Of a stretch of DNA of 35,710 nt, positions 12,706-34,996 are shown piece by piece. The notes under the pieces were generated by a model. The model had not been told where the DNA came from, searched no databases, and was given only the letters and a program-made list of their open reading frames with translations. Location: NCBI GenBank assembly GCA_017398685.1, contig JAFQFH010000026.1:1-35710 (forward strand). The letters are read 5' to 3'. Position 1 is the stretch's first letter. Each line of letters opens with the position of its first letter. Source of the stretch: Oscillospiraceae bacterium (GTDB lineage Bacteria; Bacillota; Clostridia; Oscillospirales; Oscillospiraceae). A program made the position numbers and the translations under genes.

Positions 12706-13526
12706 CACTTATATCTGACGGATGGGGTGTAAAACTCGAATATGACGCAGTGGCGGCCTCTTTCGCTTTTTTTGTCGTGTGAGGTCCAGCCCACCTTCAT
12801 TGCGCCCATAAGCTCGGCAAAACGGATGCTTAAGGGGCGGGGGCCTATCTTGTAGGCGATGAAGTGGGGTCTGGCGATAAGGTTTGTAAAGCCGTGGGCC
12901 AGAAGGAATTTCAGCACGGGGCTGAGACTTTCGGCATAGTCCTCTTCGGGCATGGCCAATTGGCCGCGCAGATAGTCGGGCGCGTGCTTTTTAAACCAGC
13001 GGACTATACCCGGATGAAAGCTTTCCACGCAGAAAATGCCGTCATAGTAGTCCAGAATGTTCCTCACTTTTTCGCAAAGCTCATCGTTGCGGCGGCCGCC
13101 CTTGAGCTCAACTATAAGGTTTGACCTGCCGTCAATGAGTTTCAGAACCTGGGTAAAGAGGGGGATGCGATGCTCTGTGCCGCAGAGGGAGAGCTTTTCA
13201 AGCTCATCATAGTCCAGCTCGTCCACCCTTGCGTCCACGCCGCAGACGCGCTTGAGGGTATCGTCGTGGAATACCACCACCTGACCGTCCCTTGAAAGCT
13301 GAACGTCCAGCTCTATGCCGTAGCCGGTGTCGGCGGCCCGGCGGAAGGCCTCAAGAGAGTTTTCAGGCACGGACTTATCTCTGCTGTGCAGGCCGCGATG
13401 GGCGCAGTTAAGGCCGATGAAGGGAGCTTTCTGGCTGCGGGGCGCTCTGCCGGGAGCAAGCATCACAGCGGGTATGGCAAGGGCGGCAGCGGCAGCGCCC
13501 AGAGCAAGAACAGTACACTTTTTCAC
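12705..13526 (-). CDS. glycerophosphodiester phosphodiesterase, membrane-anchored
   Basis: GDPD-family enzymes hydrolyse glycerophosphodiesters from lipid or teichoic-acid turnover to glycerol 3-phosphate and an alcohol. The catalytic set is visible: HRG (residues 43-45) with VPENSLEAF, IELDVQLSRDG (71-81) and VFHDDTLKRV (86-94). The C-terminal half (GWTSHDKK) completes the barrel. Residues 1-27 are a basic and then hydrophobic anchor or signal, so the domain acts outside the membrane. GTG 13526 is the start: GGAGG lies eight bases upstream. The ATG at 13565 overlaps the promoter's -10 box (13564-13569), so it cannot be translated from that promoter. It is divergent from the MFS gene. Confidence 0.92.
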   Translation of the reverse strand: MKKCTVLALGAAAAALAIPAVMLAPGRAPRSQKAPFIGLNCAHRGLHSRDKSVPENSLEAFRRAADTGYGIELDVQLSRDGQVVVFHDDTLKRVCGVDARVDELDYDELEKLSLCGTEHRIPLFTQVLKLIDGRSNLIVELKGGRRNDELCEKVRNILDYYDGIFCVESFHPGIVRWFKKHAPDYLRGQLAMPEEDYAESLSPVLKFLLAHGFTNLIARPHFIAYKIGPRPLSIRFAELMGAMKVGWTSHDKKSERGRHCVIFEFYTPSVRYK

Positions 13527-13563
13527 TTTTTTATCCTCCGGAAGCGGAAAACGATTTTGCATC

Positions 13564-13593
13564 ATTTTAACACCATATAAGGCTCCGCGTCAA
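13564..13593 (-). promoter_or_regulatory. sigma-A promoter of the GDPD gene
   Basis: TTGACG (13588-13593, minus strand), an 18-base spacer and TAAAAT (13564-13569) predict a start near 13556. This supports the GTG 13526 start codon. Confidence 0.7.
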
Positions 13594-13601
13594 TTTATCC
13601 C

Positions 13602-13630
13602 TTGTAAAAATATGCTGTGCATAGTAAAAT
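13602..13630 (+). promoter_or_regulatory. sigma-A promoter of the MFS transporter gene
   Basis: TTGTAA (13602-13607), 17 bases and TAAAAT (13625-13630) lie back-to-back with the GDPD promoter, only eight bases apart. The two genes may therefore be co-regulated. Confidence 0.7.
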
Positions 13631-13661
13631 CATCTGGATGCAAAAACACGGAGGTAAGAAA

Positions 13662-14996: not shown

Positions 14997-15022
14997 TCTT
15001 GCGGGAGAAAAATGAATAAAAG

Positions 15023-15059
15023 AAACATGCTGCTTGCCTTGGGCTTGCAGCATGTTTTT
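15023..15059 (+). terminator. intrinsic terminator after the MFS gene
   Basis: AAACATGCTGC (15023-15033) pairs with GCAGCATGTTT (15047-15057) and is followed by further Ts. Confidence 0.88.
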
Positions 15060-15083
15060 GCGTTTTCCGTATATGCAAGATTA

Positions 15084-15112
15084 TTGAAATTTTGCTGAAG
15101 CAATAGTATACT
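15084..15112 (+). promoter_or_regulatory. sigma-A promoter of the MBOAT-SGNH operon
   Basis: TTGAAA (15084-15089), exactly 17 bases and TATACT (15107-15112) lie 40 bases upstream of the MBOAT start codon. Confidence 0.8.
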
Positions 15113-21474: not shown

Positions 21475-22983
21475 ATGAACACTCTGGAAAAAAGCAAGAA
21501 ACAGCGGCTTGTTACTGCGGGACTTTTTCTGGCCTGCACCGCTTTCTTCTTTATAATAATGCTTTGTGCACCTTTGTGCTCAGATGACCTTGAGCATGCC
21601 CGCAGGGTCTATACCGGCCCGGGCGAGCTTCTGCGCTACTGCCTTGCCTACGGCAACGGACGGCTGCTGGGAAACCTGAGCATGGTCACACTGGCGGGAA
21701 AGCCCCTTGCTGCGGCTGCGGTGAAGGCGCTTTTGATATCCGGCCTGGTTTTTATGCTGCCTGCGCTGCTGGGACTGAAAAGTGCGGGAGCATTTCTCCT
21801 GTCCTTCCTGCTTTTTGTTTTGATACGGCCTTCAATGTTTGCTCAGGTCTACGCGTGGAGCAGCGGCTTTGGCAACTATGTGCCGCCGGTCTGGCTGGGT
21901 CTGGCAGTGCTTTTACTGGCCAGACGCTGTGATGGGCAGATATCTGCGGCGGGAAAGCTTTTTTGCTGTGGGCTGATCTTCGTTTTAGGGCTGATGGCCC
22001 AGCTTTTTGTGGAACATGCTTCCGTGGTGGCTGTGCTTTTGGCGGGGGGACTGCTGATGTACAGCGTGAAAAACAAAAAGACAGCGGCGCCCTATGCCTG
22101 CTGGCTTCTGGCGGCAATTACGGGCCTTGCGCTCATGCTGCTTATTCCCAGGCTTTTTGCTATGCCCGGAAACAGGGCGGAGGGCTACAGGGGGGTGATA
22201 AACGGCAGTTTGCTGGTGTGGATAGAGGGCATGATAAGAGGATTTGCCTCGGCGGTGTCGGCCTTCCCGCCTGTGGGCAGCATTGTGATATCCGCATTTG
22301 CGCTTGTGACGCTCCGCTTTATCCCAGCCCAGCGCTCAAAAAAAGCCGGGAACCTTATCTTTGCCGGGTCGGTGCTCTGCTTTTCCTACATGCTGCTCAA
22401 TGAGCTTTTGCCCCATAATGAGTGGACAGGCAGAATGCTGGTGGCCAAAAATTTTATTACCGCGGTTTTTGCCATATTGCCACATGTACTTTGGGCGTGG
22501 GCGCTGTGGACTTTTGAGGATAAGGGGCTGAGAAACCGTATCTATGCCCTTTTGCTTTTGTCCGCAGTATCTCTGGCACCTTTCATCCTTGTGTACCCCG
22601 CACCGGAAAGGGTCGCCTTCCTCTCCTATGTTTTTGCTATGGCCGCCATAATGCTCTTTGCCCATTGGCTTTCCGGCAAGGCCTCCCCAGGGATACGGAA
22701 GCAGGGTGTCAAAGCCCTTGTGTGCGGTACGCTGGCGGCGGCGCTTGTGCTGGGGCTGACTTTTGTGAATATTTTCTGGCTTTCAAATCTGAGGGAGAAA
22801 TATATCCTCAGGGAAATGGCCGAGGGTGCCACAGAGATCACCATTTTCCAGATACCCCACGACTATGTTTTCTGGGACGGGGCCTTCCTTTTCGAGCGCA
22901 GCTACTATTACGAAAAATGGCACGACATTTCCTTTAGCGAAACCTCCTTTGACGACTGGTATGTCAATCACTGGCTGAAGTAA
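21475..22983 (+). CDS. DUF6056-like polytopic membrane protein
   Basis: This is a 502-residue membrane protein with about eleven or twelve hydrophobic helices. The first extracytoplasmic loop has SDDLEHARR (about 37-45) and then YGNGRLLGNL, which fits the DUF6056 family: GT-C-like proteins of unknown function with an acidic loop after helix 1. The C-terminus is a soluble tail rich in aromatic residues (FLFERSYYYEKWHDISF). GGAGG lies seven bases before ATG 21475. It is monocistronic, with its own promoter and the terminator at 23043. Proximity to the divergent GT-C-like gene suggests work on the same surface glycan, an inference only. Confidence 0.75.
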   Translation: MNTLEKSKKQRLVTAGLFLACTAFFFIIMLCAPLCSDDLEHARRVYTGPGELLRYCLAYGNGRLLGNLSMVTLAGKPLAAAAVKALLISGLVFMLPALLGLKSAGAFLLSFLLFVLIRPSMFAQVYAWSSGFGNYVPPVWLGLAVLLLARRCDGQISAAGKLFCCGLIFVLGLMAQLFVEHASVVAVLLAGGLLMYSVKNKKTAAPYACWLLAAITGLALMLLIPRLFAMPGNRAEGYRGVINGSLLVWIEGMIRGFASAVSAFPPVGSIVISAFALVTLRFIPAQRSKKAGNLIFAGSVLCFSYMLLNELLPHNEWTGRMLVAKNFITAVFAILPHVLWAWALWTFEDKGLRNRIYALLLLSAVSLAPFILVYPAPERVAFLSYVFAMAAIMLFAHWLSGKASPGIRKQGVKALVCGTLAAALVLGLTFVNIFWLSNLREKYILREMAEGATEITIFQIPHDYVFWDGAFLFERSYYYEKWHDISFSETSFDDWYVNHWLK

Positions 22984-23042
22984 GCGGAGGGGATTTACAA
23001 CAGACTTACTGTAAACTAAAAGCAACTTATATATTCACCAAC

Positions 23043-23086
23043 AAAAATCGCACGCTTGTATTGAAAAATACAGGCGTGCGGTTTTT
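23043..23086 (+). terminator. intrinsic terminator of the DUF6056-like gene
   Basis: CGCACGC (23049-23055) pairs with GCGTGCG (23074-23080), extended through a mostly A/T inner stem, then GTTTTT. Between here and 23188 only one further hairpin without a T tract is seen (23144-23172). Confidence 0.82.
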
Positions 23087-23187
23087 ATGTATGTAGTTAA
23101 GCAGGAAGGTTACCGTAGCTCGTGCTAAATACAGGCTCTTTTTCCTGCGCTGCCTGTGGCAGAAGCAGCAGGCAAATCATATTATAT

Positions 23188-23227
23188 AAAAGGCTTACCG
23201 GATTTTTTCAAAACGGTAAGCCTTTTT
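23188..23227. terminator. terminator of the LacI-family gene (bidirectional shape)
   Basis: AAAAGGCTTACCG (23188-23200) pairs perfectly with CGGTAAGCCTTTT (23214-23226), with T runs on both strands. It lies 55 bases after the stop of the minus-strand regulator gene. Confidence 0.88.
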
Positions 23228-23282
23228 CTGGGTAAAAATTTTGAGTTGATTTTATTATAAGCTGCTGCGGAATAAATGCTTG

Positions 23283-24308
23283 CTAAATAAAATTAGCTCT
23301 GACACGAATTTCGGGTTCTGAAAAGTAGCGTTGTATGACGGGTGCGTTATTCATGCCCAGGTAGTCCACCAGAATGTCCACCGCAACCTGCACCTGATAC
23401 TCCGGCTGCTGACCGATGGCGGCGGTAATCACTTTGTCGGTGACCATATTTATATTGTGCTGATACAGGTCAAAGCAAACAACTTTGATCTTATGGGCGT
23501 ATCCAAGATCTTTGATTGCCTGACACCCGCCTCTGACGCCGCCTGCCGCAAAGAAAATGGAGTTAAGCTTATACTTGCTTAGCATGTCACTCACACACTC
23601 ATAGCTCTCTTTTTCCCGGTCGTAGTTCATATATGTAGTCAGAATGGATGATTTGGGGAAATTTGATAACAGATAGTCGGTAAAACCCGCTATTCTTTGC
23701 TGATGGTTATAGCTGTATTCAGAACCGGCCACAATACCAACATCCGCTTTTCCGTCAGTAAACAGGCCCATAAGGTTTCCTGCGATTGCGCCGAATTTAT
23801 AGCTGTTGCTCCCCACATAGGCCAACCGCTTTGACTCCGGCAGATCGGTGGAAAAAGTAATGACCGGTATGTTGAGGGAATGAAGCTCATCAATCTTTTT
23901 GATAATTTCCGGTGTGTTAATCGCAGAAAGGATCAGGCCGTTTATCCCCATTTTGATAAACTCATCCAGCTTTGCAATAATATCCTGGGGGCGATCCATC
24001 TTGGTATTGCCAATGACATACTTAATCCCGTATTCGTCCAGACTCTCGAGCCGCTGTTCCATGGCAGCCATAACCTGCCCAAAATAGGGGCTATCCTCGG
24101 CGTAGCCGTGAAATAAAACCCCGATAAACAGGTTTTTCTTGGTTATTGCAAGCTGTTTTCCCAGCTTGTTTGGCTTATACGAGGTTTCTGCAATCAAGCG
24201 CAGAACTTTTTGCCGGGTTTCATCACTGACACCGGGGCGGTTGTTTATGACCCTGTCAATGGTTCCTCTGGAAACACCGGCCATTTCTGATAGCTGTTTT
24301 ATCGTCAT
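23283..24308 (-). CDS. LacI-family transcriptional regulator
   Basis: A DNA-binding repressor of 341 residues. Residues 1-24 are the LacI helix-turn-helix (MTIKQLSEMAGVSRGTIDRV), followed by the hinge helix and then a periplasmic-binding-protein-like sensor domain (LFIGVLFHGYAEDSPYFG onward). RGTIDRV in the recognition helix replaces the more usual SxxTVSRV. AAGGAACGAAC precedes the ATG. The gene has its own promoter, downstream of the TauABC-type importer and the MBL-fold hydrolase, so it probably controls them through the palindrome at 28278-28291. The inducer would be the island's substrate or a breakdown product. Base composition here is more A/T-rich than on either side. Confidence 0.93.
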   Translation of the reverse strand: MTIKQLSEMAGVSRGTIDRVINNRPGVSDETRQKVLRLIAETSYKPNKLGKQLAITKKNLFIGVLFHGYAEDSPYFGQVMAAMEQRLESLDEYGIKYVIGNTKMDRPQDIIAKLDEFIKMGINGLILSAINTPEIIKKIDELHSLNIPVITFSTDLPESKRLAYVGSNSYKFGAIAGNLMGLFTDGKADVGIVAGSEYSYNHQQRIAGFTDYLLSNFPKSSILTTYMNYDREKESYECVSDMLSKYKLNSIFFAAGGVRGGCQAIKDLGYAHKIKVVCFDLYQHNINMVTDKVITAAIGQQPEYQVQVAVDILVDYLGMNNAPVIQRYFSEPEIRVRANFI

Positions 24309-24433
24309 GTTCGTTCCTTTTTGGGACTTTCAGGGCGTAAATGCAGCTGACTTGCAGTATAAACTATCCTGATACACCTGATTGTTATATCCCGTTTATT
24401 TCAGGGCATAGCACTCTTTGCCCGTTTTCCAGA

Positions 24434-24462
24434 ATTATGCAATAAAATTACAGCTTTGTCAA
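24434..24462 (-). promoter_or_regulatory. sigma-A promoter of the LacI-family gene
   Basis: A perfect TTGACA (24457-24462, minus strand), 17 bases and CATAAT (24434-24439) predict a start near 24427 and an approximately 118-base leader. Confidence 0.8.
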
Positions 24463-24502
24463 ATATTTACAAATATAGCTGAAAGCATTAATAGCAGTGA
24501 GT

Positions 24503-25357
24503 CTATTTATTGCGCACAACGGGATGTATGAGCACCTTTTCGCCGGGATGAGGCTCAAGGAAACGGTCAAGGTTCTCGATTTTATCGCGAACCATGGCAG
24601 GATCCGCAGCATACCAGCATTTGTCTGGGTCATAGTATGTACCCCAGTGGAACATGATAACTTCGCTGTCTTTCAGGGTGTTTACGATTTTCAGCGCCAG
24701 CTCTGTGCCAAAGTGATGTATGGGCTTGTTATCCTCAAAGTCCATGAACATAAGGTCCACATCTTCGTTGTCAAGATGTTCGGGAAGGTACTTGCTGTCG
24801 CCGGGGTGCCAGACCACGCCGTCTCTTGTGTAGAACTTAAAACCGCAGCAGTCCTCCAGCTTGTGAACGTAGGGCTGGGTTTCGGGATAATCGAGCTGCC
24901 AGGGATGGTCCGCCAGAGTCATTTTGACGTGCACATCGCCTATATCAAATTCGTCAAGAAGACCGTGAGCCACTATCTGCTCCTCCGGTACACCCAGTTC
25001 CATAAGCTTCATCTTGACATAGGGTGTACCGTGAAACTTAAGGTCCAGCTTTTTAAGCTCGTTGACAGTCAGTGTACCCATGTGGTCAGTATCTGCGTGG
25101 GTGTAAAGAACGGCATCCAGTTTTTTTACATCCTTGGCGAGAATAGGGGGCATGCAATACTGGGGCGCTTCCTCAACCTCACTGATGGGCGGGTTTTCGG
25201 AGGCGAGACTGATTACCGGATCGACCATAATGGTGGTCCCGTGAGAGTTCAACATGATCCCTGCGCCGGTGAGCCAGTATACAGCGGTATCGTGGCTGTT
25301 TTCAAAAGCGGCATCGGTCATGGGAATAGGGTCCGGAGCTTTTGCCTGATATTTCAT
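24503..25357 (-). CDS. metallo-beta-lactamase-fold hydrolase, UlaG-like
   Basis: A 284-residue MBL-fold metal hydrolase, closest in layout to the UlaG (L-ascorbate-6-phosphate lactonase)/UPF0173 branch. The metal site is THADTDHMG (H87, D89, D91, H92). The second His of the usual HxHxDH is Asp, giving HxDxDH as in ComEC-type enzymes. Further ligands are in LADHPWQLD (H151) and VWHPGDSKY (D187), with a C-terminal IHPVVRNK. There is no signal peptide, so it is cytoplasmic. GAGGAGATAAA precedes the ATG. It is the last gene of the importer operon, 97 bases after the binding protein and separated from it by a long palindrome. Lactone or amide opening of the imported compound is an inference. Confidence 0.85.
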   Translation of the reverse strand: MKYQAKAPDPIPMTDAAFENSHDTAVYWLTGAGIMLNSHGTTIMVDPVISLASENPPISEVEEAPQYCMPPILAKDVKKLDAVLYTHADTDHMGTLTVNELKKLDLKFHGTPYVKMKLMELGVPEEQIVAHGLLDEFDIGDVHVKMTLADHPWQLDYPETQPYVHKLEDCCGFKFYTRDGVVWHPGDSKYLPEHLDNEDVDLMFMDFEDNKPIHHFGTELALKIVNTLKDSEVIMFHWGTYYDPDKCWYAADPAMVRDKIENLDRFLEPHPGEKVLIHPVVRNK

Positions 25358-25398
25358 TTTATCTCCTCAATTAAAAATGATAATAAATTTTCCTTAAT

Positions 25399-25438
25399 AG
25401 GCAATTATGGTGGGGCATATGCCTCACCATAATTGCCT
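25399..25438. repeat. 40-bp near-perfect palindrome between binding-protein and MBL genes
   Basis: Twenty bases on each side mirror each other with a single mismatch (25413/25424), centred on GGCATATGCC. It lacks a proper T tract in the transcribed (minus) direction. It more likely stabilises the upstream binding-protein mRNA or attenuates partially than acts as a full terminator. Confidence 0.85.
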
Positions 25439-25454
25439 TTAAAACTGTGTTTGC

Positions 25455-26585
25455 TTAGCCTTCGGCTATGATCTGCATCAGATCTTCTCTCTCAAGAAGC
25501 TCGTAGTAAAGCTTCTCTGCTTCGCCAAAGTACTTGTCTGCGGTGTAGCTTTCGTCCAGAGTACCGACCTTGATTGCGTTGTTGATGCAGTACTCAACGG
25601 GCTTACGCCAGTAGTAGTCGCTGTCGGGGTTGTAAACGTTCTTTTCGCACTCTTCCAGAGTCTGGAAAATGTCGTAAATGGTCTGCATCTCGAGGTACTC
25701 ATCAACGGAGAACTCAGCGCCGGAGATCTTGCTGAGGCCGGCTGCAGCCACCTCTGCGAACTTCTCAGGATCCTCGTTGAACTTCTTCTCTGCCAGATAG
25801 CAGCAGGCGAGAGTTCTCAGAGCAGCCTCGCGATTGTTGATCATGAACTCGTCAGTGCTGGAGAAGGTGTCGTACCATGCACCGGCAGGGCCGAGGATTT
25901 CGTAACCGCCTGCGTCAATAAAGGCGCCGTTACCCTGATTGAGGAGGTAGGTCTGCTGGGGAATGCCGCCGATGTAGAAGTCACCGTTGCCGGCGAGGAA
26001 TGCGGTGGCGGCCTTTGCGTCATCTGCAAATTCCATGAAGTTTACATCGTCTGCGCCCAGACCGACCTGCTCAAGCATATCGATTATCAGCGGCTCTTTC
26101 TGGGGGATGATGCAGATGGTCTTGCCCTTGAACTCGTTTCTTCTGTACTCTCTTGCAGCCTCAAGGCCCATCTCTGCCTTCAGATCCTCCCAAGGCTTGA
26201 TATCCTCGGCGCGGCCGACAAAGAAGAAGCCCTTATAAAAGCCCAGAGGAATAAAGTGCCTGATGTCGGGGCAGCCCTTCATAACGGCGACCTGTTCATC
26301 AACACAGCCGTAGGATACGTCAATGTCACCGCGGACATTTGCCTGGTAGCCAGGGGCGGAGTTGGTAAAGGGCACGATGGTGATATCAATGCCGCAAAGC
26401 TTGTCCAGACCCCACTCTTTGGCAACGTTGAATACCTGATACATGGGGTAGGGGCCAATGCCTATCTTGACGGGATAGACCTCGTCAAAGGTGGGGAGCT
26501 CGCTGTCTGCCGATGCTGCAACGCCGCCCATCAGGAGCGTGGCAAACATCAGAGTCGCCAATAGGACTGAGATCAATTTCTTCAT
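25455..26585 (-). CDS. ABC transporter substrate-binding protein, TauA/SsuA/NitT-like
   Basis: A 376-residue secreted binding protein of the taurine/nitrate/sulfonate type. Residues 1-26 are a signal peptide (MKKLISVLLATLMFATLLMGG ...). The mature part starts with VKIGIGPYPMYQVF and the typical IDITIVPF and DIDVSYGCVDEQV ligand-cleft segments. There is no lipobox Cys at the cleavage site, unusual for a Gram-positive binding protein, so anchoring may be by an uncleaved signal or by association with the permease. AAGGAGG precedes ATG 26585. The operon order is ATPase, permease, this gene, MBL hydrolase. The ligand is unknown; anionic or amine-containing small molecules are usual for the class. 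Confidence 0.9.
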   Translation of the reverse strand: MKKLISVLLATLMFATLLMGGVAASADSELPTFDEVYPVKIGIGPYPMYQVFNVAKEWGLDKLCGIDITIVPFTNSAPGYQANVRGDIDVSYGCVDEQVAVMKGCPDIRHFIPLGFYKGFFFVGRAEDIKPWEDLKAEMGLEAAREYRRNEFKGKTICIIPQKEPLIIDMLEQVGLGADDVNFMEFADDAKAATAFLAGNGDFYIGGIPQQTYLLNQGNGAFIDAGGYEILGPAGAWYDTFSSTDEFMINNREAALRTLACCYLAEKKFNEDPEKFAEVAAAGLSKISGAEFSVDEYLEMQTIYDIFQTLEECEKNVYNPDSDYYWRKPVEYCINNAIKVGTLDESYTADKYFGEAEKLYYELLEREDLMQIIAEG

Positions 26586-26634
26586 TTCTACTGTTCCTCC
26601 TTATGTGTTTTTATTTTTACATGCTGTGCATGTA

Positions 26635-27417
26635 CTATTTTATCCCTTCAAAGGTGACGACGGCTCTGTCGGTCCAGACGGTGAGGCGTCTTTCAATTGC
26701 TGCGATGATCTTATCGAGAATAATTGCAAAGCAGCAATATATGAGAACAATGACCATAATGCCCGGTGTATTCAGATACATCTGCTGGACTATCATGTTG
26801 TAGCCAAGACCGATCTGTACGCCCATGAACTCAGCGGCAACGTCCAGTCCCCAGGAGGTGGCGGCGGCCACGCGGATAGCACCGACAAGGTGGGGGATGA
26901 TGTAGGGGATAACCACGGTTTTGAATATGGTCTTTTTGTTTGCGCCAAGGTTCTGGGATGCCCGGATATAGATCAGAGGCATATTTTTAATTGCTTCATA
27001 GGTCTGAACGCCGATGATACCCATAACACCCAGTGCAACCAGAAAAACCTGAGGCAGGATACCAAGACCGAACCAGATCATGAAAAGGGGAATGAGAGCG
27101 AATACGGGAATGGGCCTTGTGAACTCCATAAAGGGACCCACAGTATCCATAAAAGCCTTGGAATAGGCCATGAGCAGGCCCATCAGAAGACCCACGGTGA
27201 GGCCGATGAGGAAGCCGGACATGGTGATACGAAGGCTGGCCAGACATGCAGACAGAAGATTTTTTCTCATGCTCCACAGCGCTTCGGCCAGATCTACGGG
27301 ACTGGGCAGGAAGGTATAGGTTACGACCTTGAAAACCATCGTTGCCAGAACCCAGGCGACCATTAAGACCAGAAATGCCAGAAGGCTGGGCGGAATTCTA
27401 TTTTTTGTTTTAATCAT
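26635..27417 (-). CDS. ABC transporter permease, SsuC/TauC-like
   Basis: A 260-residue inner-membrane permease with six hydrophobic helices. The N-terminal helix is followed by TFLPSPVDLAEALWSM, typical of the taurine/sulfonate group, and RITMSGFLIGLTVGLLMGLLMAYS marks the binding-protein-dependent transport domain. The cytoplasmic coupling loop is SWGLDVAAEFMGVQIGLGYNMIVQQ. The start ATG 27417 follows GAGGTAGCGGT. It lies 13 bases downstream of the ATPase gene and 49 bases upstream of the binding-protein gene. Confidence 0.93.
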   Translation of the reverse strand: MIKTKNRIPPSLLAFLVLMVAWVLATMVFKVVTYTFLPSPVDLAEALWSMRKNLLSACLASLRITMSGFLIGLTVGLLMGLLMAYSKAFMDTVGPFMEFTRPIPVFALIPLFMIWFGLGILPQVFLVALGVMGIIGVQTYEAIKNMPLIYIRASQNLGANKKTIFKTVVIPYIIPHLVGAIRVAAATSWGLDVAAEFMGVQIGLGYNMIVQQMYLNTPGIMVIVLIYCCFAIILDKIIAAIERRLTVWTDRAVVTFEGIK

Positions 27418-27430
27418 ACCGCTACCTCAA

Positions 27431-28201
27431 TCAAAAACTTTCATATTCTTTCAGTTCGTCTATCATTTGTCTGCGCATTTTTTGGAACTGAGGATTTTCC
27501 TTTATTGCCAGTGATCTGGGGCGCTCGAAGGGGATGTCGTAAACATGAAGCTCACCGCCGAAGCTTATAGGCTGCATGATTGCCACGCGGTCGCCAAGGA
27601 AAATAGCCTCTTCAATGTCGTGGGTAACGAAAATGATGGTCTTTTTTGTCTTCTCCCAGATCTGAAGCAGCTGCTCCTGAAGCTTTTCCTTCGTCATGGC
27701 ATCCAGCGCACCGAAAGGCTCGTCCATGAGCATTATCCTTGGGTTGTTGCTCAGCACACGGGCAAGGTCAACGCGCTTTTTCATACCGCCGGACAGCTCC
27801 TTGGGATACTGGTTTTCCACTCCGCTGAGACCCACCAGAGAGATGAAATGGTTTGCGATTTCATCCCGTTCGGCTTTCTCAATACCTCTGGCTTTCAGAC
27901 CGTACTCTACATTCTGGTACACTCTCATCCAGGGGAAGACCGCATCTTCCTGAAAGACCATGGCTCTTTCATAGGATACATCGTTTATTTCCTCGCCGTT
28001 GTCAAGGATTACACCTTTTTCGGCCTTTTCAAAGCCGGCGATTATTTTCAGTATAGTGGATTTACCGCAGCCGGAAGGGCCGAGCAGGCAAAGAAATTCA
28101 TTGTCCTTTACGGTGAGATTAAGATTATGCACGATTTCTTTGCGTTCTTTTGCTTTTTTTCTGTTCTGATACGAAAAGCAGAGATCCTTTATTTCAATCA
28201 T
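27431..28201 (-). CDS. ABC transporter ATP-binding protein, SsuB/TauB-like
   Basis: The 256-residue ATPase of the importer. Walker A is GPSGCGKST (41-49), the signature is ELSGGMKKRVDLARVL, Walker B is IMLMDEPFGALD, and the switch His is in IFVTHDIEEA. It is the first gene of the operon, about 92 bases downstream of the predicted transcript start. The ATG is preceded by AAAGG nine bases away. A small hairpin in the leader (28216-28233) lies just before that binding site. Confidence 0.95.
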   Translation of the reverse strand: MIEIKDLCFSYQNRKKAKERKEIVHNLNLTVKDNEFLCLLGPSGCGKSTILKIIAGFEKAEKGVILDNGEEINDVSYERAMVFQEDAVFPWMRVYQNVEYGLKARGIEKAERDEIANHFISLVGLSGVENQYPKELSGGMKKRVDLARVLSNNPRIMLMDEPFGALDAMTKEKLQEQLLQIWEKTKKTIIFVTHDIEEAIFLGDRVAIMQPISFGGELHVYDIPFERPRSLAIKENPQFQKMRRQMIDELKEYESF

Positions 28202-28277
28202 CTACCGCAACCTTTGCTTATTGAAAAATAAGCTTTCCTTTCAATGAATTGTGAAGATATTACGAGTAAAACGGTTT

Positions 28278-28291
28278 CGTGCTCGAGCACG
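28278..28291. promoter_or_regulatory. candidate LacI-type operator at the importer promoter
   Basis: CGTGCTCGAGCACG is a perfect 14-bp palindrome with the central CG usual for LacI-family sites. It begins about two or three bases downstream of the predicted transcription start of the importer operon, a classical repressor position. The LacI-family gene at the end of the same cluster is the natural candidate to bind it. I saw no second copy in the other gaps of the window. Confidence 0.7.
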
Positions 28292-28299
28292 GTAACTAT

Positions 28300-28327
28300 A
28301 GTATAACTATTTTTTGAATGTTGTCAA
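28300..28327 (-). promoter_or_regulatory. sigma-A promoter of the TauABC-type importer operon
   Basis: A perfect TTGACA (28322-28327, minus strand), 16 bases and TATACT (28300-28305) make one of the strongest promoters in the window, with the palindrome overlapping its start region. Confidence 0.82.
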
Positions 28328-28390
28328 TTGTCGTTTTGAGCATAGTAAAGGGGATTTTTTTGTGCAAAATAACTGAGCAAATACAAAAGG

Positions 28391-28560
28391 TATAATAGTG
28401 TGAGCAAAAAGGCGCCTGACAGAAAGCTGAAAAAGGCGCCGTAATACAAAAGCTTATTAAAGGAGAGAGTGGTGTCGCCTTAAATTGCAGTAAGGCAGAT
28501 TGTTGGCCCAAGGGAAGAGAATTTTGCGGCGGCGACACAGGAAATATGAAGAAAAAGGGT
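28391..28560. other. non-coding region with inverted repeats, possible small RNA
   Basis: No convincing gene is found between the importer promoter and the HTH gene. A TATAAT at 28391-28396 faces right but has no -35 box. GGCGCC repeats at 28411 and 28435 form a hairpin with a T tract on the minus strand, terminator-like. GTGTCGCC (28472-28479) and GGCGACAC (28531-28538) pair around 51 bases. AAAGGAGAGAG followed by GTG opens only a four-codon frame. The direction of any transcript is undecided. Confidence 0.35.
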
Positions 28561-28568
28561 GTATTTTT

Positions 28569-28605
28569 AAAACAAGGAGCCCAGCCGCGAGGGATGGACT
28601 CCTTG
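28569..28605 (-). terminator. intrinsic terminator of the amidohydrolase-HTH operon
   Basis: On the minus strand a 10-bp stem (28596-28605 with 28573-28582, one wobble) is followed by TTTT. It lies 45 bases after the HTH stop codon. Confidence 0.8.
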
Positions 28606-28649
28606 CCAAAAAAAGAAGGAAAATGAGTTTGTCTGAAAAAAGAATAATT

Positions 28650-28877
28650 TTATTCTTTCACAAAGTCGATTTTGAGCTTGTAACCCATCCCTTTTGCGAG
28701 ACGATAAAGCGTGTAAAGGTCCGGGTCATCGCCATGGTTCATCCTGTTGAAAATGGTGGACAAATTCTGGCGGGTTTTTCCGAGAACATTGCATATATCC
28801 TGTTCAAGGATGCCGTTCTCCTTCATAAAGCTTTTTATTTCGTCATGCAGCTGCTTGTTGTCACCGGAATAGATCAT
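28650..28877 (-). CDS. small helix-turn-helix protein, XRE-like
   Basis: A 75-residue protein made almost entirely of one Cro/C1-type helix-turn-helix. DIKSFMKENGILEQDICNVL-like spacing is present at residues about 12-31, then GKTRQNLSTIFNR as the recognition region and LYTLYRLAKGMGYKLKIDF as the closing helices. There is no sensor domain. It is the last gene of the operon, 39 bases after the amidohydrolase, with GGTGA before the ATG and a terminator behind. It could be a local regulator or a leftover of another module. The DNA target is unknown. Confidence 0.75.
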   Translation of the reverse strand: MIYSGDNKQLHDEIKSFMKENGILEQDICNVLGKTRQNLSTIFNRMNHGDDPDLYTLYRLAKGMGYKLKIDFVKE

Positions 28878-28916
28878 TTATTCACCAACTTTTCCTGAAT
28901 AGTGTTTTAGCTTATA

Positions 28917-29819
28917 TTACTTGACTTCGATGTTATACAGCTTGGAAGCGCAGCCGAACATGATGCTGTCGATCTCGCTCTGGGTCAGTTCGGGCCAGCC
29001 GCAGCGTCTGTTGATCTCGTTCAGGCCGACCTGGACAAGGTGGATCCAGTTCTTGAGGTCCTCGGTGGGGTTGGGGCCGAACACATCGTAGTTATATGCA
29101 ACGTAGTCGGTGGCGAACATGACGCGGTCGAGAACGCCGTACTCTCTTGCAAGAACAAGCTGCCATGCGGTCCACATGGGACGGCCGTAAGTCATGGCAA
29201 GGTCGGTGTACAGGTTCTTGTCGTTGGTCATGAGCACGAACAGGTACTCGGACCAGGGGTAGCCCAGATGCTCCACGACGACTTTCATGTTGGGGAAGTC
29301 GATGAGAACATCATTGAGCAGGTCCATGTGTGCGTACTGGGTGGGGGCGAGGATGGCGGGGCCCATCTGTGCGGAGTGGTGGTACTGCACAACGATATCG
29401 TTTTTCTGTGCCAGCTGATAGAAGGGGTAGACAGTCTTGTCGTTGGACTTGTACTGGCCATAGGGAGGAGTCATGAGGACGCCGCGGATGCCGTCTTCCT
29501 TAATTGCGCGCTCAAACTCGTCGTAGGCTTCCTGATAGAAGCGGTTTGCCTTGTCAATGGGCTCAAGGCTTGCGAAGGGGATAAAGAAATCGGGGTACTT
29601 CTTGTAGGCTTCACGGACGTAGTCCTCGCCAAAGGTGGAGTTCCAGATTCTGGACATGTCCTGACCCATGCAAACGCACTTGTCGATGCCGGCGGCCTTG
29701 TACCAGGATACGAGGGTATCAATGTCGGTATCTTCGGGGACCTTCATACCCAGTCTGTCATAGGTGGGCTTGTCAAAATTTGCCTTTCTGATCAAATGCA
29801 TATGGGAATCAATAATCAT
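28917..29819 (-). CDS. amidohydrolase family 2 (TIM-barrel) hydrolase or decarboxylase
   Basis: A 300-residue amidohydrolase-superfamily protein of the 'amidohydrolase 2' group, which includes metal-dependent hydrolases, lactonases and non-oxidative decarboxylases. The metal site starts with DSHMHL (H6, H8) at the very N-terminus. QYHHSAQMG, VEHLGYPW and the late VMFATDYVAY (metal/catalytic Asp) follow in family order. ATG 29819 is chosen since AAAGGAG lies eight bases upstream and the conserved MIIDSHMHL begins there. It is third in the operon after the creatinase-like and TIGR04076 genes. No signal peptide is present. The substrate is unknown. Confidence 0.88.
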   Translation of the reverse strand: MIIDSHMHLIRKANFDKPTYDRLGMKVPEDTDIDTLVSWYKAAGIDKCVCMGQDMSRIWNSTFGEDYVREAYKKYPDFFIPFASLEPIDKANRFYQEAYDEFERAIKEDGIRGVLMTPPYGQYKSNDKTVYPFYQLAQKNDIVVQYHHSAQMGPAILAPTQYAHMDLLNDVLIDFPNMKVVVEHLGYPWSEYLFVLMTNDKNLYTDLAMTYGRPMWTAWQLVLAREYGVLDRVMFATDYVAYNYDVFGPNPTEDLKNWIHLVQVGLNEINRRCGWPELTQSEIDSIMFGCASKLYNIEVK

Positions 29820-29885
29820 GATGTTTTCTCCTTTCAAAATTATATAAGCAAAGAATTGTTTCAGACCCGCAGTAAAAAATGAGAA

Positions 29886-30221
29886 TTACTTGGTGTCAGC
29901 GGCGTTGTCCCAGGCTTCGTCCAGACGCTCTATCTTAAAGACAACGGGACGGATACCGTCGTTGCAGCAGTTGACAGCAATACCGGGACGGTTTACCCAG
30001 TCGCTGTAAATCTGCTCACTGCCCATGGACAGGGCAAAAACATAGTACTGTATTGCCTGCCAGGCATCCTCACAGAAATTTTCGGGCTTGCAGTAGTCGG
30101 TAATAAAAGTATCGCCCTCTCTGAAGAAGGGGCAGGGAGTTATACCCTCTGCACCATACTCTGCAGCCAGCTCTTCGTTAAAACATCTCTTCAAAACTGT
30201 TATTTTGCATTTGTAATTCAT
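29886..30221 (-). CDS. TIGR04076 family protein
   Basis: A 111-residue protein matching the TIGR04076 pattern: N-terminal YKCKITVLKR, GITPCPFFREGDTF with a conserved Cys (C30), EDAWQAIQYYVFAL and the closing GIRPVVFKIERLD. Family members are small, of unknown function, and often lie beside oxidoreductases or amidohydrolases in anaerobes. The start has AAGGAGG seven bases upstream. It sits 36 bases after the creatinase-like gene and 66 bases before the amidohydrolase, so it belongs to the same operon. Confidence 0.85.
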   Translation of the reverse strand: MNYKCKITVLKRCFNEELAAEYGAEGITPCPFFREGDTFITDYCKPENFCEDAWQAIQYYVFALSMGSEQIYSDWVNRPGIAVNCCNDGIRPVVFKIERLDEAWDNAADTK

Positions 30222-30257
30222 GTGCGGCCTCCTTGGTAAATAGAACTGAAGAAAAGT

Positions 30258-31637
30258 TTATTTCTGGACAGTGTATGCCAGATTAAGATTGAAGTAATAA
30301 GGGGCGTACCAGCTGGCAAGATTGGACATGGGCAGCACCTCGTCCGGCACGTCAATATTAAGCTCGTTGCGCATATAGTCGCGGCGCATTATCATGCGCT
30401 CGTATACTTCGGGATACTTCTCCTTCAGCTTCTGCTGCAAAGCTTCGTCGGCAATGCAGAAGCCGTCCTCGCAGTTGGGGGAAATGTAGCCGTCAATGGA
30501 AGGAATAATATCCATCTGGATGAGCATACCGCTGACGATTTTATCCGTGCAGCCGGGAGCAAAGGGAGAACTGAGCCATTCTTCGTCGGAGATAAGATGT
30601 CCGGGGTTGAGGACCCAACCGAACTTCTCCTTGGGGATTATGCTGTTTACAAGGTCGAAGATCTCTCCGCCGGTGACGCCGATCTTCATGTTTTCGACCC
30701 AGGCGACAACTGCCTTGAAATAGGTAAGGCAGATATTGTCTGCAAATTCCTTGGCAGCTTCGGGTACACTGTTGACGCCGTCAACAAGGTAGCCGTTTCT
30801 CACGCTCAGACCGCCGCGCATACCCAGACTGTTGGTTACGGGATCGCCGTATTTTGCGCGGTATACATTGGCGCTTATAAGGCCCTTCTTTGTGTTTTCA
30901 GCGGCAGCAATGGTGGGGTGGCAGGACAGGGGCTGGCCATAAACTGCAAACTTATTTGCAATGTCCAGTTCGCGCTCACCCAGCCATTTGGAGTTGATTG
31001 CGTTCCACACGGAGTTTGAAGCCAGGGTGGCACCGTGCTCATAATAGGCAATTTCATCCTCGGTGTTGGTAACTCTTATGCCGTAACCGGGAGCGATGAA
31101 AAGATGTGTCACATTGCGGATCGTTTCAGGAGCCACGATCTTGGCAATTGCCTGATAAATAAAGGTGGGGATGCAGAACTGATCTTCTGCGAGCAGCTTC
31201 CAGCCCACCACGCCGACCTTGGACTCGCTGCTGATACCTGCGGCCTTCAGCAGCTCATCGAGAGGCTCTTTCACACTGTCAGGCTGGCTGGGCAGGGATA
31301 TGGTGGGATACAGCTGAGCGCTGACGGGAATGCGTGCGGTCTTGTGCATGGGGAAGCACTCGTTGCCAAGGAACAGTCTGCATTTGCCGTCAGAATGCAG
31401 TACGGCAAGACCCTCTTCAAAACGGGGTTCAAATCCGATTATGTAGTTGAAGTTTGCAAAATGCTCTCTGTCGGCGTAGATGATAATAACGTCAAGGTCC
31501 GACTTTTTCATAAGGTCAAGAACCTTTGCCAGACGGAGCTGATACACTTCGTCCGGGAGCTGAGGGAAGACCTCGGGAATGGGGAACTTGGGCAGCTTTA
31601 CATCGCTGAGCACAATATTCTTGGGCTGATAATTCAT
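30258..31637 (-). CDS. creatinase/M24-fold protein lacking most canonical metal ligands
   Basis: A 459-residue protein with the two-domain layout of creatinases and Xaa-Pro peptidases: an N-terminal creatinase-like domain (about 30-185) and a C-terminal pita-bread fold (about 190-430). The M24 metal set is Asp-Asp-His-Glu-Glu. Here the usual double-Asp strand reads GDPVTNSLGMRGG (264-276) with no ligand pair, the His is kept in NPGHLISDEEW (H347), the first Glu is replaced in QMDIIP (D376) and the last Glu is kept in CEDGF (E390). This resembles metal-independent C-N hydrolases such as creatinase more than a peptidase. GGAGG precedes ATG 31637. It is first in its operon and divergent from an arginase-fold gene. 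The substrate is not known. Confidence 0.85.
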   Translation of the reverse strand: MNYQPKNIVLSDVKLPKFPIPEVFPQLPDEVYQLRLAKVLDLMKKSDLDVIIIYADREHFANFNYIIGFEPRFEEGLAVLHSDGKCRLFLGNECFPMHKTARIPVSAQLYPTISLPSQPDSVKEPLDELLKAAGISSESKVGVVGWKLLAEDQFCIPTFIYQAIAKIVAPETIRNVTHLFIAPGYGIRVTNTEDEIAYYEHGATLASNSVWNAINSKWLGERELDIANKFAVYGQPLSCHPTIAAAENTKKGLISANVYRAKYGDPVTNSLGMRGGLSVRNGYLVDGVNSVPEAAKEFADNICLTYFKAVVAWVENMKIGVTGGEIFDLVNSIIPKEKFGWVLNPGHLISDEEWLSSPFAPGCTDKIVSGMLIQMDIIPSIDGYISPNCEDGFCIADEALQQKLKEKYPEVYERMIMRRDYMRNELNIDVPDEVLPMSNLASWYAPYYFNLNLAYTVQK

Positions 31638-31736
31638 AAAAACCTCCGTACTGTGGAAATAATGTTTCTCCCTGTTTTGTAGGTTGGCAAGGCGCTGCGC
31701 ACGGGAATGCCGGATTACAAGTAAAAACCTTTTGTA

Positions 31737-31765
31737 TTGACAGAAAACGAAAAGATGGATATTTT
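31737..31765 (+). promoter_or_regulatory. promoter of the arginase-family gene
   Basis: A perfect TTGACA (31737-31742), exactly 17 bases and TATTTT (31760-31765) lie 27 bases upstream of the start codon. No clear promoter for the divergent creatinase-like operon was found in 31638-31736. Confidence 0.65.
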
Positions 31766-31791
31766 AAAAGAAAAAGCGAAAGGACTATCAA

Positions 31792-32745
31792 ATGAAAAAG
31801 AAAAAGCTTTCTAAGTTGGCTGTTATAGAAATACCCTACGGGGATATCGGCTGGGGAACGAGTCCCGGGCATGAATGGGAAGGCGTGCGCTCTGATATCC
31901 AGCACTGGAAAAAGTACAGAGAGCTGGATGACTACAGGCTGTGCGGGGTATACACAAGGGCAGAAGTGCCCTATTGTGTTGATGAGCTGGTGCTGGAGCA
32001 ACCGGTTGACAACGAAGTATATCTTGCTCTGGCAAAAAAAGTATCAGACATTGTGTCAACACACCTTGAAAAGGGAGAAGCAGTTCTCGCCGTTGGTGGG
32101 TACTGCAGGGATGCAGTGGGGATATGCGGCGGTATCCAGCGGGCATTCGGTAAAGATACCAGAATAGGAATTGTATATCTTGATGCCCACAGCGATATGG
32201 CAAGTCCCGAGATAACAAAATCCGGAATTCTGGGAGGAATGGACCTTAACTGTGTACTGGGGCTGAGCCTCCCTGAATGGAGAGAAGCCGCATACCTGGA
32301 GAAACCTGTGGAAGCCGGAAATGTAATACTGGGGGATTTCAGGAATATCCTGCCAAATGAAGATGACGGCACCTCAGAACTGGTCCGCAAGCTGGATATT
32401 GTGCTCATGGGCCCCGATATATTCTGCGATGAGCAAGCCTTCCGGGCACAGGTCGAATCCCTGGCGGAACGGGTGGATATAATATATCTTCACATAGATG
32501 AGGACGTCCTGGACAAAAAGTATGCCCCCAACGCCTGGTGTCTGTCCGAAATTCCCGGTCCATCGGTGGAGCTTGTCAATAAACACATCAAAACAGTGAT
32601 GAATACGGGAAAAGTCGCGGTATTCAGCGTGTTGGATGTCTACTTTGAGCTTGACGAGAACGGACAGGAAGCAGCTACCCTGAATGCCATGAGAATGATT
32701 TCCTCAGGGCTTGAAGCCTGGAAAGAGCAGCCGGAAATCGGATAA
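31792..32745 (+). CDS. arginase/agmatinase superfamily protein with variant active site
   Basis: A 317-residue ureohydrolase-fold protein. Most binuclear metal ligands are present: DAHSD (D131, H133, D135) and HIDEDVLD (D236, D238). The first ligand motif, normally GGxHS, reads GGYCR, so His is replaced by Cys (C105). The substrate-guanidinium Glu of the VEVNP motif is replaced by Asp in SVLDVYF (D282), and the Ser and Pro flanking the last Asp box (SxDxDxxDP) are His and Lys. Substrate and chemistry may therefore differ from arginase or agmatinase. It is monocistronic with its own promoter, divergent from the creatinase-like operon. The start is preceded by GAAAGGA. Confidence 0.85.
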   Translation: MKKKKLSKLAVIEIPYGDIGWGTSPGHEWEGVRSDIQHWKKYRELDDYRLCGVYTRAEVPYCVDELVLEQPVDNEVYLALAKKVSDIVSTHLEKGEAVLAVGGYCRDAVGICGGIQRAFGKDTRIGIVYLDAHSDMASPEITKSGILGGMDLNCVLGLSLPEWREAAYLEKPVEAGNVILGDFRNILPNEDDGTSELVRKLDIVLMGPDIFCDEQAFRAQVESLAERVDIIYLHIDEDVLDKKYAPNAWCLSEIPGPSVELVNKHIKTVMNTGKVAVFSVLDVYFELDENGQEAATLNAMRMISSGLEAWKEQPEIG

Positions 32746-32775
32746 AAAACAAACTGCGCAAAATTTCAGTCTATA

Positions 32776-32825
32776 CAAACCGACTCCCAGTCAAACCAAA
32801 AGTTTGGCTGGGAGTCTTTCGGTTC
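32776..32825. terminator. terminator-like hairpin between converging genes
   Basis: GACTCCCAG (32782-32790) pairs with CTGGGAGTC (32808-32816), plus inner CAAAC/GTTTG pairs. The stem is strong but the T tracts on both sides are short. Confidence 0.65.
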
Positions 32826-32857
32826 GCTCAAGACATTTAGTTTGTTTGTTTATTAAA

Positions 32858-33847
32858 TCAGCTCAAATCCTTTGCGTAGATGATGCTGGGCTCGAACTCG
32901 AAAATGTCATCGGGACCCTGACGGGTGTACTCGCCGGCGAAGATCTGCTCCATAAGCTCAATGCAGCTGGTGCCGAAGAACTCGGGGTACATGGTTACAA
33001 CTGCGTACATGGAGCAGTCGGGACCGCCGTCTGTCATAAGCTGGATCTGCTCGTCAGTACCGTCGTAGGTGACGACAATAACATCCTCTGCACCGATCTC
33101 CTGCAGGCCGTGCCAACCGGCAACGCCGCAGTCACCAACGTATGCGAAGATACCGTCGGTCTCGGGGTAGGTGGTGACCATGTCAACTGCCCATGCACGG
33201 AGAGTGTCGCGGTTGAGGTCCATGGTACGTCTCTTGGTCCAGGTAACGCTGGGGTGATTTTCCTTCAGATAATCGGTGAAACCATCGTTGCGGCGCCAGG
33301 AAGAAGCAACGGAGGGATCCTCTTCATAGATAACGATGTGAGCATCTTCCATGCCGTTGAGAGCTTCCATCATGGCCTTTGCTGCCAGCTGACCACCCAT
33401 GTAGTCATCGCATCTGACGGCGGCAGTCTCGTTGCCGGCAACGGCAAGACAGTCATAGCCGATAATGGGCAGGCCGGCATCTACGACCTTCTGAACCATG
33501 TCACCTGCGGCATCGCAGTCAATTGCGGTGTAGATAATGCCGTCGGGACGCTGAACGATCAGGTTTTCAAGGTACTCAACAGCCTTGTTCCAGTCGCCGG
33601 TGGGGTCAAGAACCTGAAGGTTCCAGCCGCGTGCATCGCATTCCTTCTGGACCTGGTTGACGACGTCAGTTGCAAACTGCTCGCCCATATCCCAGGGGAT
33701 TATTGCAATGTTTTTTGCTTCGACAGCGGGTTCGGCGGGAGCTGCTGCGCTCTCCTCTGCGGGAGCAGCCTCTTCTGCCTTCTGGCCGCATGCAGTCAGG
33801 CTGAAGAGCATGACACATGCCAGGATGAGTGCTAAGAATTTTTTCAT
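32858..33847 (-). CDS. ABC transporter substrate-binding lipoprotein, RbsB-like
   Basis: A 329-residue sugar-type binding protein (periplasmic-binding-protein 4 family). The lipoprotein signal is MKKFLALILACVMLFSLTAC with the lipidated Cys at residue 20, then an Ala/Glu/Pro-rich tether (22-43). The core shows IAIIPWDMGEQFATDVVNQVQ, NLIVQRPDGIIYTAIDCDAAG and VVTYDGTDEQ. ATG 33847 has AGGAGG five bases upstream. It is the last gene of the rbs-type operon. The ligand need not be a sugar: the cleft segment has DWNKAVEYLENLI but no recognisable ribose or galactose fingerprint. Confidence 0.92.
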   Translation of the reverse strand: MKKFLALILACVMLFSLTACGQKAEEAAPAEESAAAPAEPAVEAKNIAIIPWDMGEQFATDVVNQVQKECDARGWNLQVLDPTGDWNKAVEYLENLIVQRPDGIIYTAIDCDAAGDMVQKVVDAGLPIIGYDCLAVAGNETAAVRCDDYMGGQLAAKAMMEALNGMEDAHIVIYEEDPSVASSWRRNDGFTDYLKENHPSVTWTKRRTMDLNRDTLRAWAVDMVTTYPETDGIFAYVGDCGVAGWHGLQEIGAEDVIVVTYDGTDEQIQLMTDGGPDCSMYAVVTMYPEFFGTSCIELMEQIFAGEYTRQGPDDIFEFEPSIIYAKDLS

Positions 33848-33890
33848 TGTTGCCTCCTGATAATTATTTTTTATTTTAAGAGCAGTAATT

Positions 33891-34964
33891 CTACTCTTGT
33901 TTCTTTTCGGTGGTGGCTTTGGCAGCCTCAGGGGCCTGCGGGAGCTTCTTTGCCACTGCCTTCCGGAACTTTCCGGAACCACCCATGGATATGGCCATGG
34001 AATAATACACTGCAGCGATCATGATGACACCGCGGACAACCATCTGCCAGTTGGAAGTAATGAACATCAGGTTCATGCCGTTGCTGATCATGCCTATCAT
34101 TACGGAGCCAAGGAATATACCGAGAGCAGAGCCTGCACCGCCGCCAAGGGGAACGCCGCCCATAGCGCAGGCGGATATGGCGTAGGTGGCATAGTTGTTG
34201 CCGGCGTTGGGTGTGGCAGAGCCGACGCGGGCGGTCATGAGAATTCCTGCAAAGCCTGCAAGTGCAGCGCTGATGACGTAGGTCATCATGCGGATGCGCT
34301 TGGTGTTGACGCCGGAGAAGTATGCTGCCTGATAGTTGCCGCCGTTTGCGTAGATCTTACGGCCGAAGGAAGTGCCTTTGAGGACAAAGCCCACAATAAA
34401 GAACACAAGGAACATCAGTATGACGTTCAGAGGAACTCCAAAGAAATGCGCGGAACCGAGGAACTTGAATTCTTCAGGCAGGTTGCTTACAGGGGAGTTG
34501 TTGCAGACGATGTAAATAATTCCGCGAATGGCGGTATCGGTACCGAGTGTAACGATGAAGGGGGGTATTTCTGTCCGGGAGACTATGAAGCCGTTGATTG
34601 CACCGAAGACGCAGCAAATCAGGATTGCCACGACTACAGCCAGCCACATGGGAAGATGCAGACCGTAAAGCCCGGTTGTAACCATAAGGGCACAGCACGC
34701 GCCGCCAAGACCGCAGATGGCACTGCAGGAAAGGTCGAAGGTGCCGTTTATCATGGGGAATGCGACGGCGCAGGCGAGAATTCCGTAGACTACTATCTGC
34801 TGAAGGAGATTTTTAATATTCTGCAACGATAAGAACGCAGGGTTCCTCAGGTAGACAATAAACCCAAACGTAATTATAAGCAGAATAACACCGGCTAATT
34901 CTCTGACGCTGGAATTGCTGAGGCGTGAAATTAAACTGCCCTCTTTTTCTTTCAAAGATTTCAT
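33891..34964 (-). CDS. ABC transporter permease, RbsC-like
   Basis: A 357-residue membrane permease of the BPD_transp_2 family with about ten helices. The family segments INGTFDLSCSAICGLGGACCAL, FIVTLGTDTAIRGIIYIVCN and GVNTKRIRMMTYVISAALAGFAGIL are visible. The C-terminal tail (AVAKKLPQAPEAAKATTEKKQE) is charged. ATG 34964 is preferred over ATG 34973: GGGAG lies nine bases upstream of the former but directly abuts the latter. It is the middle gene of the operon, 43 bases before the binding protein. Confidence 0.93.
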   Translation of the reverse strand: MKSLKEKEGSLISRLSNSSVRELAGVILLIITFGFIVYLRNPAFLSLQNIKNLLQQIVVYGILACAVAFPMINGTFDLSCSAICGLGGACCALMVTTGLYGLHLPMWLAVVVAILICCVFGAINGFIVSRTEIPPFIVTLGTDTAIRGIIYIVCNNSPVSNLPEEFKFLGSAHFFGVPLNVILMFLVFFIVGFVLKGTSFGRKIYANGGNYQAAYFSGVNTKRIRMMTYVISAALAGFAGILMTARVGSATPNAGNNYATYAISACAMGGVPLGGGAGSALGIFLGSVMIGMISNGMNLMFITSNWQMVVRGVIMIAAVYYSMAISMGGSGKFRKAVAKKLPQAPEAAKATTEKKQE

Positions 34965-34996
34965 TTTTGCCATCTCCCTTGTTGTGTGTATATTAC

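Follow-up and report, generated by a model that had tools for sequence, protein, structure and literature searches.

Divergently encoded creatinase-fold and arginase-fold proteins of an Oscillospiraceae contig probably belong to separate little-studied families rather than to one guanidine-degradation route

A contig of an Oscillospiraceae bacterium (JAFQFH010000026.1) carries, back to back, genes for a protein of creatinase fold and a protein of arginase fold, both with altered active sites, and raises the question of whether the two act together on one compound. The window, i.e., the whole stretch of 35,710 nucleotides that was analyzed, is the 35.7-kb contig C20 of a 2.1-Mb genome. The M24-like protein of 459 amino acids is encoded on the reverse strand at 30258..31637 (open reading frame (ORF), Creatinase_N domain, predicted model and fold matches) and the arginase-like protein of 317 amino acids on the forward strand at 31792..32745 (ORF; PF00491, 54.4 bits against a cut-off of 22). 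The two ORFs are divergent with 154 bases between them, and stand where an earlier reading made from the letters alone (the sequence-only reading) had put them. That reading suggested that the altered pair acts, with an amidohydrolase, a metallo-beta-lactamase-fold (MBL) hydrolase and two importers, in an undescribed degradation route, perhaps for a guanidino- or ureido-type compound. The observations below suggest that the two proteins belong to separate, little-studied families and are probably not partners in guanidine degradation. The favored explanation, at a probability of about 0.43, is an accessory uptake-and-hydrolysis block that serves a sugar-like compound which bears an amide and is imported. 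In it, the M24-like protein would act as a hydrolase using little or no metal, and the arginase-like protein would be an amidohydrolase distinct from it.

The predicted model of the M24-like protein and its structure matches place it in the creatinase/prolidase (pita-bread) fold, with an N-terminal domain. The metal ligands of M24 metallopeptidases are Asp, Asp, His, Glu and Glu, and in prolidase and aminopeptidase P the active-site His of a PH motif adjoins the metals. In a profile alignment the M24-like protein lacked both metal-binding Asp residues and retained His347 and Glu390, as had been read from the sequence; the Glu that had been counted as lost proved to be a fixed Asp, Asp376, in place of the first metal Glu. 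The A4 profile of the family lacks a His aligned with the one next to the metals in prolidase (that of the PH motif in 1pv9).

The altered site is a family trait. His347, Glu353, Asp376 and Glu390, the fixed residues of the pita-bread domain, were invariant in 101 of 101 distinct family proteins aligned, from rows that had been selected by motif, and at positions 266-285 Asp was never among the four commonest letters in 128 rows. The N-terminal domain has fixed residues of its own (Tyr54, Asp56, Glu58, Arg72, Glu74 and Glu75). The idea that the active-site loss is peculiar to this locus was rejected, since it is fixed across the family and the His-Asp-Glu pattern is also found in ten other M24-like proteins of the order. 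These form a second M24-like group (L006-L031), with the pattern in 10 of the 10 aligned and the metal Asp pair absent in the one protein aligned out. The three retained positions could be taken to indicate a one-metal enzyme, either a peptidase-like hydrolase or a DddP-like lyase, in which His347, Asp376 and Glu390 would hold a single ion. This is unlikely: the bridging Asp is absent, and a metal-free solution is suggested by the second group, because its ten proteins keep His-Asp-Glu and the one aligned out is without the Asp pair.

The arginase superfamily has six metal ligands: His, Asp, His, Asp, Asp and Asp. The arginase-like protein has GGYC in place of the GGDH of arginase and retains DAHSD and HIDED. 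Cys105 is thus at the first His ligand, with the other five metal ligands retained, and Asp282 occupies the position of the guanidinium-binding Glu277; both substitutions had been recognized in the sequence-only reading. A superfamily alignment of 58 rows (L041, L049, L055 and L059 included) had His and Glu in 51, Cys without Glu in six (the window protein and five relatives, which are 42, 39, 30, 24 and 24% identical to it) and Cys with Glu in one. Asp at the Glu277 position is found only in the window copy and is replaced by Ser or Cys in the five relatives, so the Cys ligand is the shared trait. Glu277 of human arginase contacts the guanidinium group (PMC9224512). Because none of the six aligned family members has this Glu, a guanidino substrate is less likely for the arginase-like protein. 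An ORF of another genome (G1104, L237, 1267-2094) has Cys at the first ligand with the substrate Glu retained, a second and different Cys variant.

The six Cys members group in a tree with support of 100/93, a join that may be false, as the program warns of long branches meeting. Among 398 genomes, the family (expectation value (E) below 1e-20) was found in G170, G290, G496 and G534 beyond the window's own. Its neighbors vary by place: among those listed are genes for an Amidohydro_1 protein and an M17 aminopeptidase at one locus (L064), a chemotaxis receptor at another (L063), and a gamma-glutamyltranspeptidase on the G170 contig in which the arginase-like gene apparently continues (L068). 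The arginase-like gene has no fixed partner among the neighborhoods listed. No arginase homolog was found on plasmids at E 1e-12, and viral contigs yielded one, L173, of the ordinary His/Glu type. The family is a natural test of how the arginase fold fares when Cys replaces a His ligand and guanidinium is no longer bound.

The pairing of the two genes was examined within 5 ORFs of the M24-like gene at 16 widely sampled loci, at 80 closest relatives (the best 80 of at least 569, mainly from Bacillota and Enterobacterales) and at 20 controls, the last being 20 of 27 places with weaker M24 matches that encode other M24-like proteins of the same order. The 16 and the 80 make up 96 loci, L176 included. 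The arginase-like gene was near none of the 96 M24-like relatives (0/96), an earlier pass over 95 loci likewise met no such gene, and a search of 100 further genomes from the genus recovered neither protein (E 1e-8). The proposed joint action of the pair is therefore not supported. The two genes as a module were rejected, as no genome besides the window's is in both family lists (398 genomes each). Both an M24-like gene and an arginase of the ordinary His/Glu type are present in G565, on different contigs. TIGR04076, the family of a small protein encoded next to the M24-like gene, had been proposed for a survey of co-occurrence with the two genes; this was not conserved (0/96 loci, 1/20 controls), and TIGR04076 was rejected as a conserved partner of the M24-like gene.

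The M24-like family itself is widespread: at least 596 pattern matches in named genomes included at least 569 that were relatives by tblastn (E up to 1e-3), and the family is present in 11 of the 398 genomes searched beyond the window's own. The gene is found in 64 plasmid records, including plasmids of Rhizobiaceae and of one haloarchaeon, and the annotated plasmid copies are mostly labeled M24 family metallopeptidase, aminopeptidase P or Xaa-Pro aminopeptidase. One Enterobacter M24-like gene had no near match in E. coli genomes. A widespread creatinase-fold family with a fixed non-peptidase site is probably mis-annotated under such names.

What the M24-like protein might act on was sought in its neighborhoods. 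At least two of RbsA, RbsB and RbsC were encoded within 5 ORFs at 6/16 wide loci, 3/80 closest loci and 0/20 controls, and an M20, M81 or amidohydrolase gene at 6/16, 9/80 and 2/20, respectively; these counts are descriptive, because the loci are related, and so non-independent, and some contigs are short. In G585, which is of the same family as the window, the order is sugar-binding protein, RbsA, RbsC, M20, M24-like protein, xylulokinase (TIGR01312, 547.9 against a cut-off of 380.25) and xylose isomerase (TIGR02630, 669.7 against 533.25). L083 and L084 have xylulokinase (XylB), a sugar-isomerase-like protein, an M20 protein of ArgE/DapE type, the M24-like protein, RbsA and RbsC (families scored in L083), and L104 has M20, M24-like, RbsB, RbsA and RbsC. 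An M81 gene immediately precedes the M24-like gene in L094, L098 and L109; in the last of these, a tandem pair of M24-like genes (9908-12747) follows the M81 gene and a ribose-type importer. A literature search returned no paper joining an M24 peptidase with xylulokinase and an ABC (ATP-binding cassette) transporter, or with xylose isomerase and the ROK family.

Twelve plasmid regions were also read, from gene tables that were incomplete; two plasmid records carried no annotation around the M24-like gene. Two regions of Agrobacterium pAt have sugar ABC genes, a ROK regulator, the M24-like gene, UgpC, a TIM barrel protein, M20 and an alpha-glucosidase. Pantoea vagans has sugar ABC genes, ROK, M81, M24-like and UgpC, and in Pantoea At-9b the M24-like gene lies between two phosphotransferase/GH1 systems, directly after a LacI regulator. 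A Rhizobium plasmid has sugar ABC genes, an aldose epimerase and ROK near the M24-like gene, which directly follows the ROK gene in both Rhizobium and Agrobacterium, and in Halomontanus sulfatases and GH97 are nearby. The regions of Enterococcus faecium, E. faecalis and Rahnella showed no sugar importer among their annotated genes.

These neighborhoods are consistent with an uptake-and-hydrolysis block of the following kind. The two importers would bring small molecules into the cell, where several hydrolases would act on them. The M24-like protein would hydrolyze a C-N bond of an imported sugar-like compound in the manner of creatinase or EutD, using little or no metal. An acyl or amino-acid part would then be removed by a second enzyme, a metallo-amidase (M20, M81 or an amidohydrolase; here perhaps the Amidohydro_2 protein). 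The arginase-like protein would most likely be a metal-dependent amidohydrolase for a non-guanidino substrate, recruited locally. In a wider and rather improbable version, sugar-nitrogen compounds (glycosylamines, Amadori compounds or N-acyl amino sugars) would be opened by the M24-like proteins as a hitherto unrecognized class of metal-free hydrolases, which bacteria and archaea would use with sugar-uptake operons and an M20, M81 or amidohydrolase deacylase; the arginase-fold protein with its Cys ligand, as an amidohydrolase and not a ureohydrolase, would have joined this route here. If the family does consist of sugar-linked hydrolases, the label it usually carries is wrong, and operon contexts such as the xylose operon with isomerase and kinase make it possible to test one step in how nitrogen-bearing sugars are used.

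Several observations weigh against the uptake-and-hydrolysis reading. Judged by the aligned residues, no known M24 catalytic set appears complete in the M24-like protein, because the prolidase His beside the metals is also lost, and the selection of rows by motif bears on the conservation that was seen. Most of the 80 closest loci lie outside such operons (CUT2 importer, 3/80; C-N or peptide hydrolase, 9/80), and their commonest reference neighbor is a DeoR regulator, in 14/80. An M20, M81 or amidohydrolase gene directly adjoins the M24-like gene at 4/16 and 7/80 loci, which is a weak sign because 2/20 controls also show one, and part of the neighbor association may be incidental; loci that are related do not count as independent. 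In L085 the M24-like gene has a purine nucleoside phosphorylase and a deaminase-type amidohydrolase nearby, which makes nucleosides as possible as sugars. As to the arginase-like family, the six members may be two groups, one of four (support 100/100) and one of two, and a single-sequence model of the window protein had a pLDDT (predicted local distance difference test) of 35.6, which made it useless, and it was not used.

Three loci with genes of ureido or guanidino type also weigh against this reading. In G125 the gene beside the M24-like one encodes an amidase of the hydantoinase/carbamoylase family (TIGR01879, 310.7 bits against a cut-off of 204); on a Shinella plasmid (L244, 5840-6853) an arginine-deiminase-fold protein is encoded in an ABC importer operon that ends with the M24-like gene, two genes away; and on pAt an annotated citrulline hydrolase, CtlX, lies seven genes upstream. 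Together with the guanidino enzymes known in both folds, these would suit a sequential route for guanidino or ureido compounds, with the M24-like protein serving as an amidinohydrolase like creatinase and the arginase-like protein as a ureohydrolase like arginase. Such a route is nonetheless quite unlikely, given that the pair is not conserved in either the 96 loci or the genus, that the guanidinium-binding Glu is missing in all six arginase-like members, and that several M24-like neighborhoods consist of carbohydrate genes. What survives of the degradation route first proposed is its general character: the locus looks like one for uptake and degradation, and elsewhere the M24-like family is found beside importers and a C-N or peptide hydrolase, but the guanidino/ureido chemistry as stated, and in particular a guanidino substrate, has become less likely.

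The regulators raise a further possibility, that the M24-like proteins are pseudo-enzymes with a binding or regulatory role, which sense a sugar or peptide and work together with the ROK, DeoR, LacI or RpiR regulators that they can adjoin. A DeoR gene adjoins the M24-like gene in 10/80 loci, the positions directly after ROK and LacI genes noted above are of the same kind, the gene often has no other reference gene nearby, and the absence of both metal Asp residues, as well as of the active-site His of prolidase, would fit. Four residues identical in 101/101 proteins are, however, more typical of catalysis, and the creatinase fold is generally known to work without metal; a pseudo-enzyme is thus improbable, and the uptake-and-hydrolysis block remains the favored explanation.

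The genes around the pair are in keeping with this block, with the amidohydrolase, the MBL hydrolase and the two importers of the sequence-only reading all present, but by strand and spacing they form several transcription units. On the reverse strand, the TIGR04076 family protein (111 amino acids, 29886..30221; 93.1 bits, cut-off 33) is encoded 36 bases after the M24-like gene, and an Amidohydro_2 family hydrolase (28917..29837; 86 bits, HxH motif in the translation) 48 bases after that; the nearest solved relative of the hydrolase is 3irs, named uncharacterized. A small ORF of 75 amino acids (28650..28877, reverse) comes directly after the amidohydrolase; its translation is helix-turn-helix-like by eye, and a Pfam search with it gave no match. 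Further along the same strand are the ATPase (27431..28201; PF00005, 112 bits), assigned to a NitT/TauT-like importer by operon context, the permease (26635..27417; PF00528, 83.6 bits) and the SsuA-like substrate-binding protein (25455..26585; Pfam and NCBIfam scores under curated cut-offs) of that importer, followed by the MBL hydrolase (24503..25357; PF12706) and a LacI-type regulator (23283..24308; Pfam/NCBIfam profile search). An Amidohydro_1 protein is encoded outside the catabolic block, at 11436-12644 on the forward strand.

Beyond the arginase-like gene, and convergent with it, is the reverse-strand gene of a sugar-type (CUT2, RbsB-like) substrate-binding protein (32858..33850; PF13407, 130.4 bits), for which the best NCBIfam match was RbsB at 82.8 bits, under the cut-off of 337. 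An RbsC-like permease (33891..34973, reverse; PF02653, 143.3 bits) and an RbsA-like ATPase truncated by the contig end (34997..35710, reverse; PF00005, 79.5 bits) follow. Between the convergent genes is a terminator-like stem of 15 pairs (32782..32816), from a scan that was near chance overall (6 found, 4.9 expected), and upstream of the arginase-like gene is a promoter-like site, TTGACA-17-TATTTT (31737..31765, forward), from a scan likewise near chance (6 found, 5.0 expected).

The part of the contig that holds these genes differs from the rest. All 20 other genomes searched in the genus had matches to DNA from 5300-15100, those in G651 and G670 being weak, and mis-binning of the contig as a whole is therefore unlikely. 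DNA from 28900-33900 matched in 8/20, in fragments of about 140 bases or less and nothing longer. By these matches the contig appears to belong to the genus, with the tested catabolic part as an extra to it, this extra block being defined over the tested 28.9-33.9 kb. The guanine-plus-cytosine (GC) content is about 0.45-0.53 in the 3' part and 0.51-0.58 elsewhere. Over 22000-30000 it falls to about 0.45-0.51, compared with 0.51-0.58 over the first 22 kb, a drop that would fit an acquired block; a chimeric join may also lie ahead of the 3' part.

Both proteins can be set against known systems. The arginase-like protein shares PF00491 and five of six ligands with the arginase/ureohydrolase superfamily (profile match to 1cev, E 1.6e-37), and differs from ureohydrolases in its Cys for the first His and in having no guanidinium-binding Glu; it scores 60.6 bits with the arginase equivalog TIGR01229, under the cut-off of 227.6. 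DcsB, an N-omega-hydroxy-L-arginine amidinohydrolase (PDB 6lug), is a weak match (E 2.1e-6), below several ordinary arginases. It presumably has Cys at the same ligand position.

The M24-like protein shares its fold with the prolidases and aminopeptidases P (M24B) and is without their two metal Asp residues, a metal Glu (now Asp) and the active-site His. Creatinase, in which the fold functions without metal through a catalytic His232 and a guanidinium-binding Glu pair, has the same fold and 11-13% identity in structure tables, with no significant sequence match; the M24-like neighborhoods read held no creatine genes by annotation, with no search aimed at creatine or sarcosine genes. Ectoine hydrolase (EutD/DoeA) also has the fold in common, at 14% identity. 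It is a creatinase-like member of the M24 family that is required for growth on ectoine and is followed by a deacetylase (PMC3187862), and EutD and its deacetylase are the nearest worked-out precedent for the two-step scheme proposed here.

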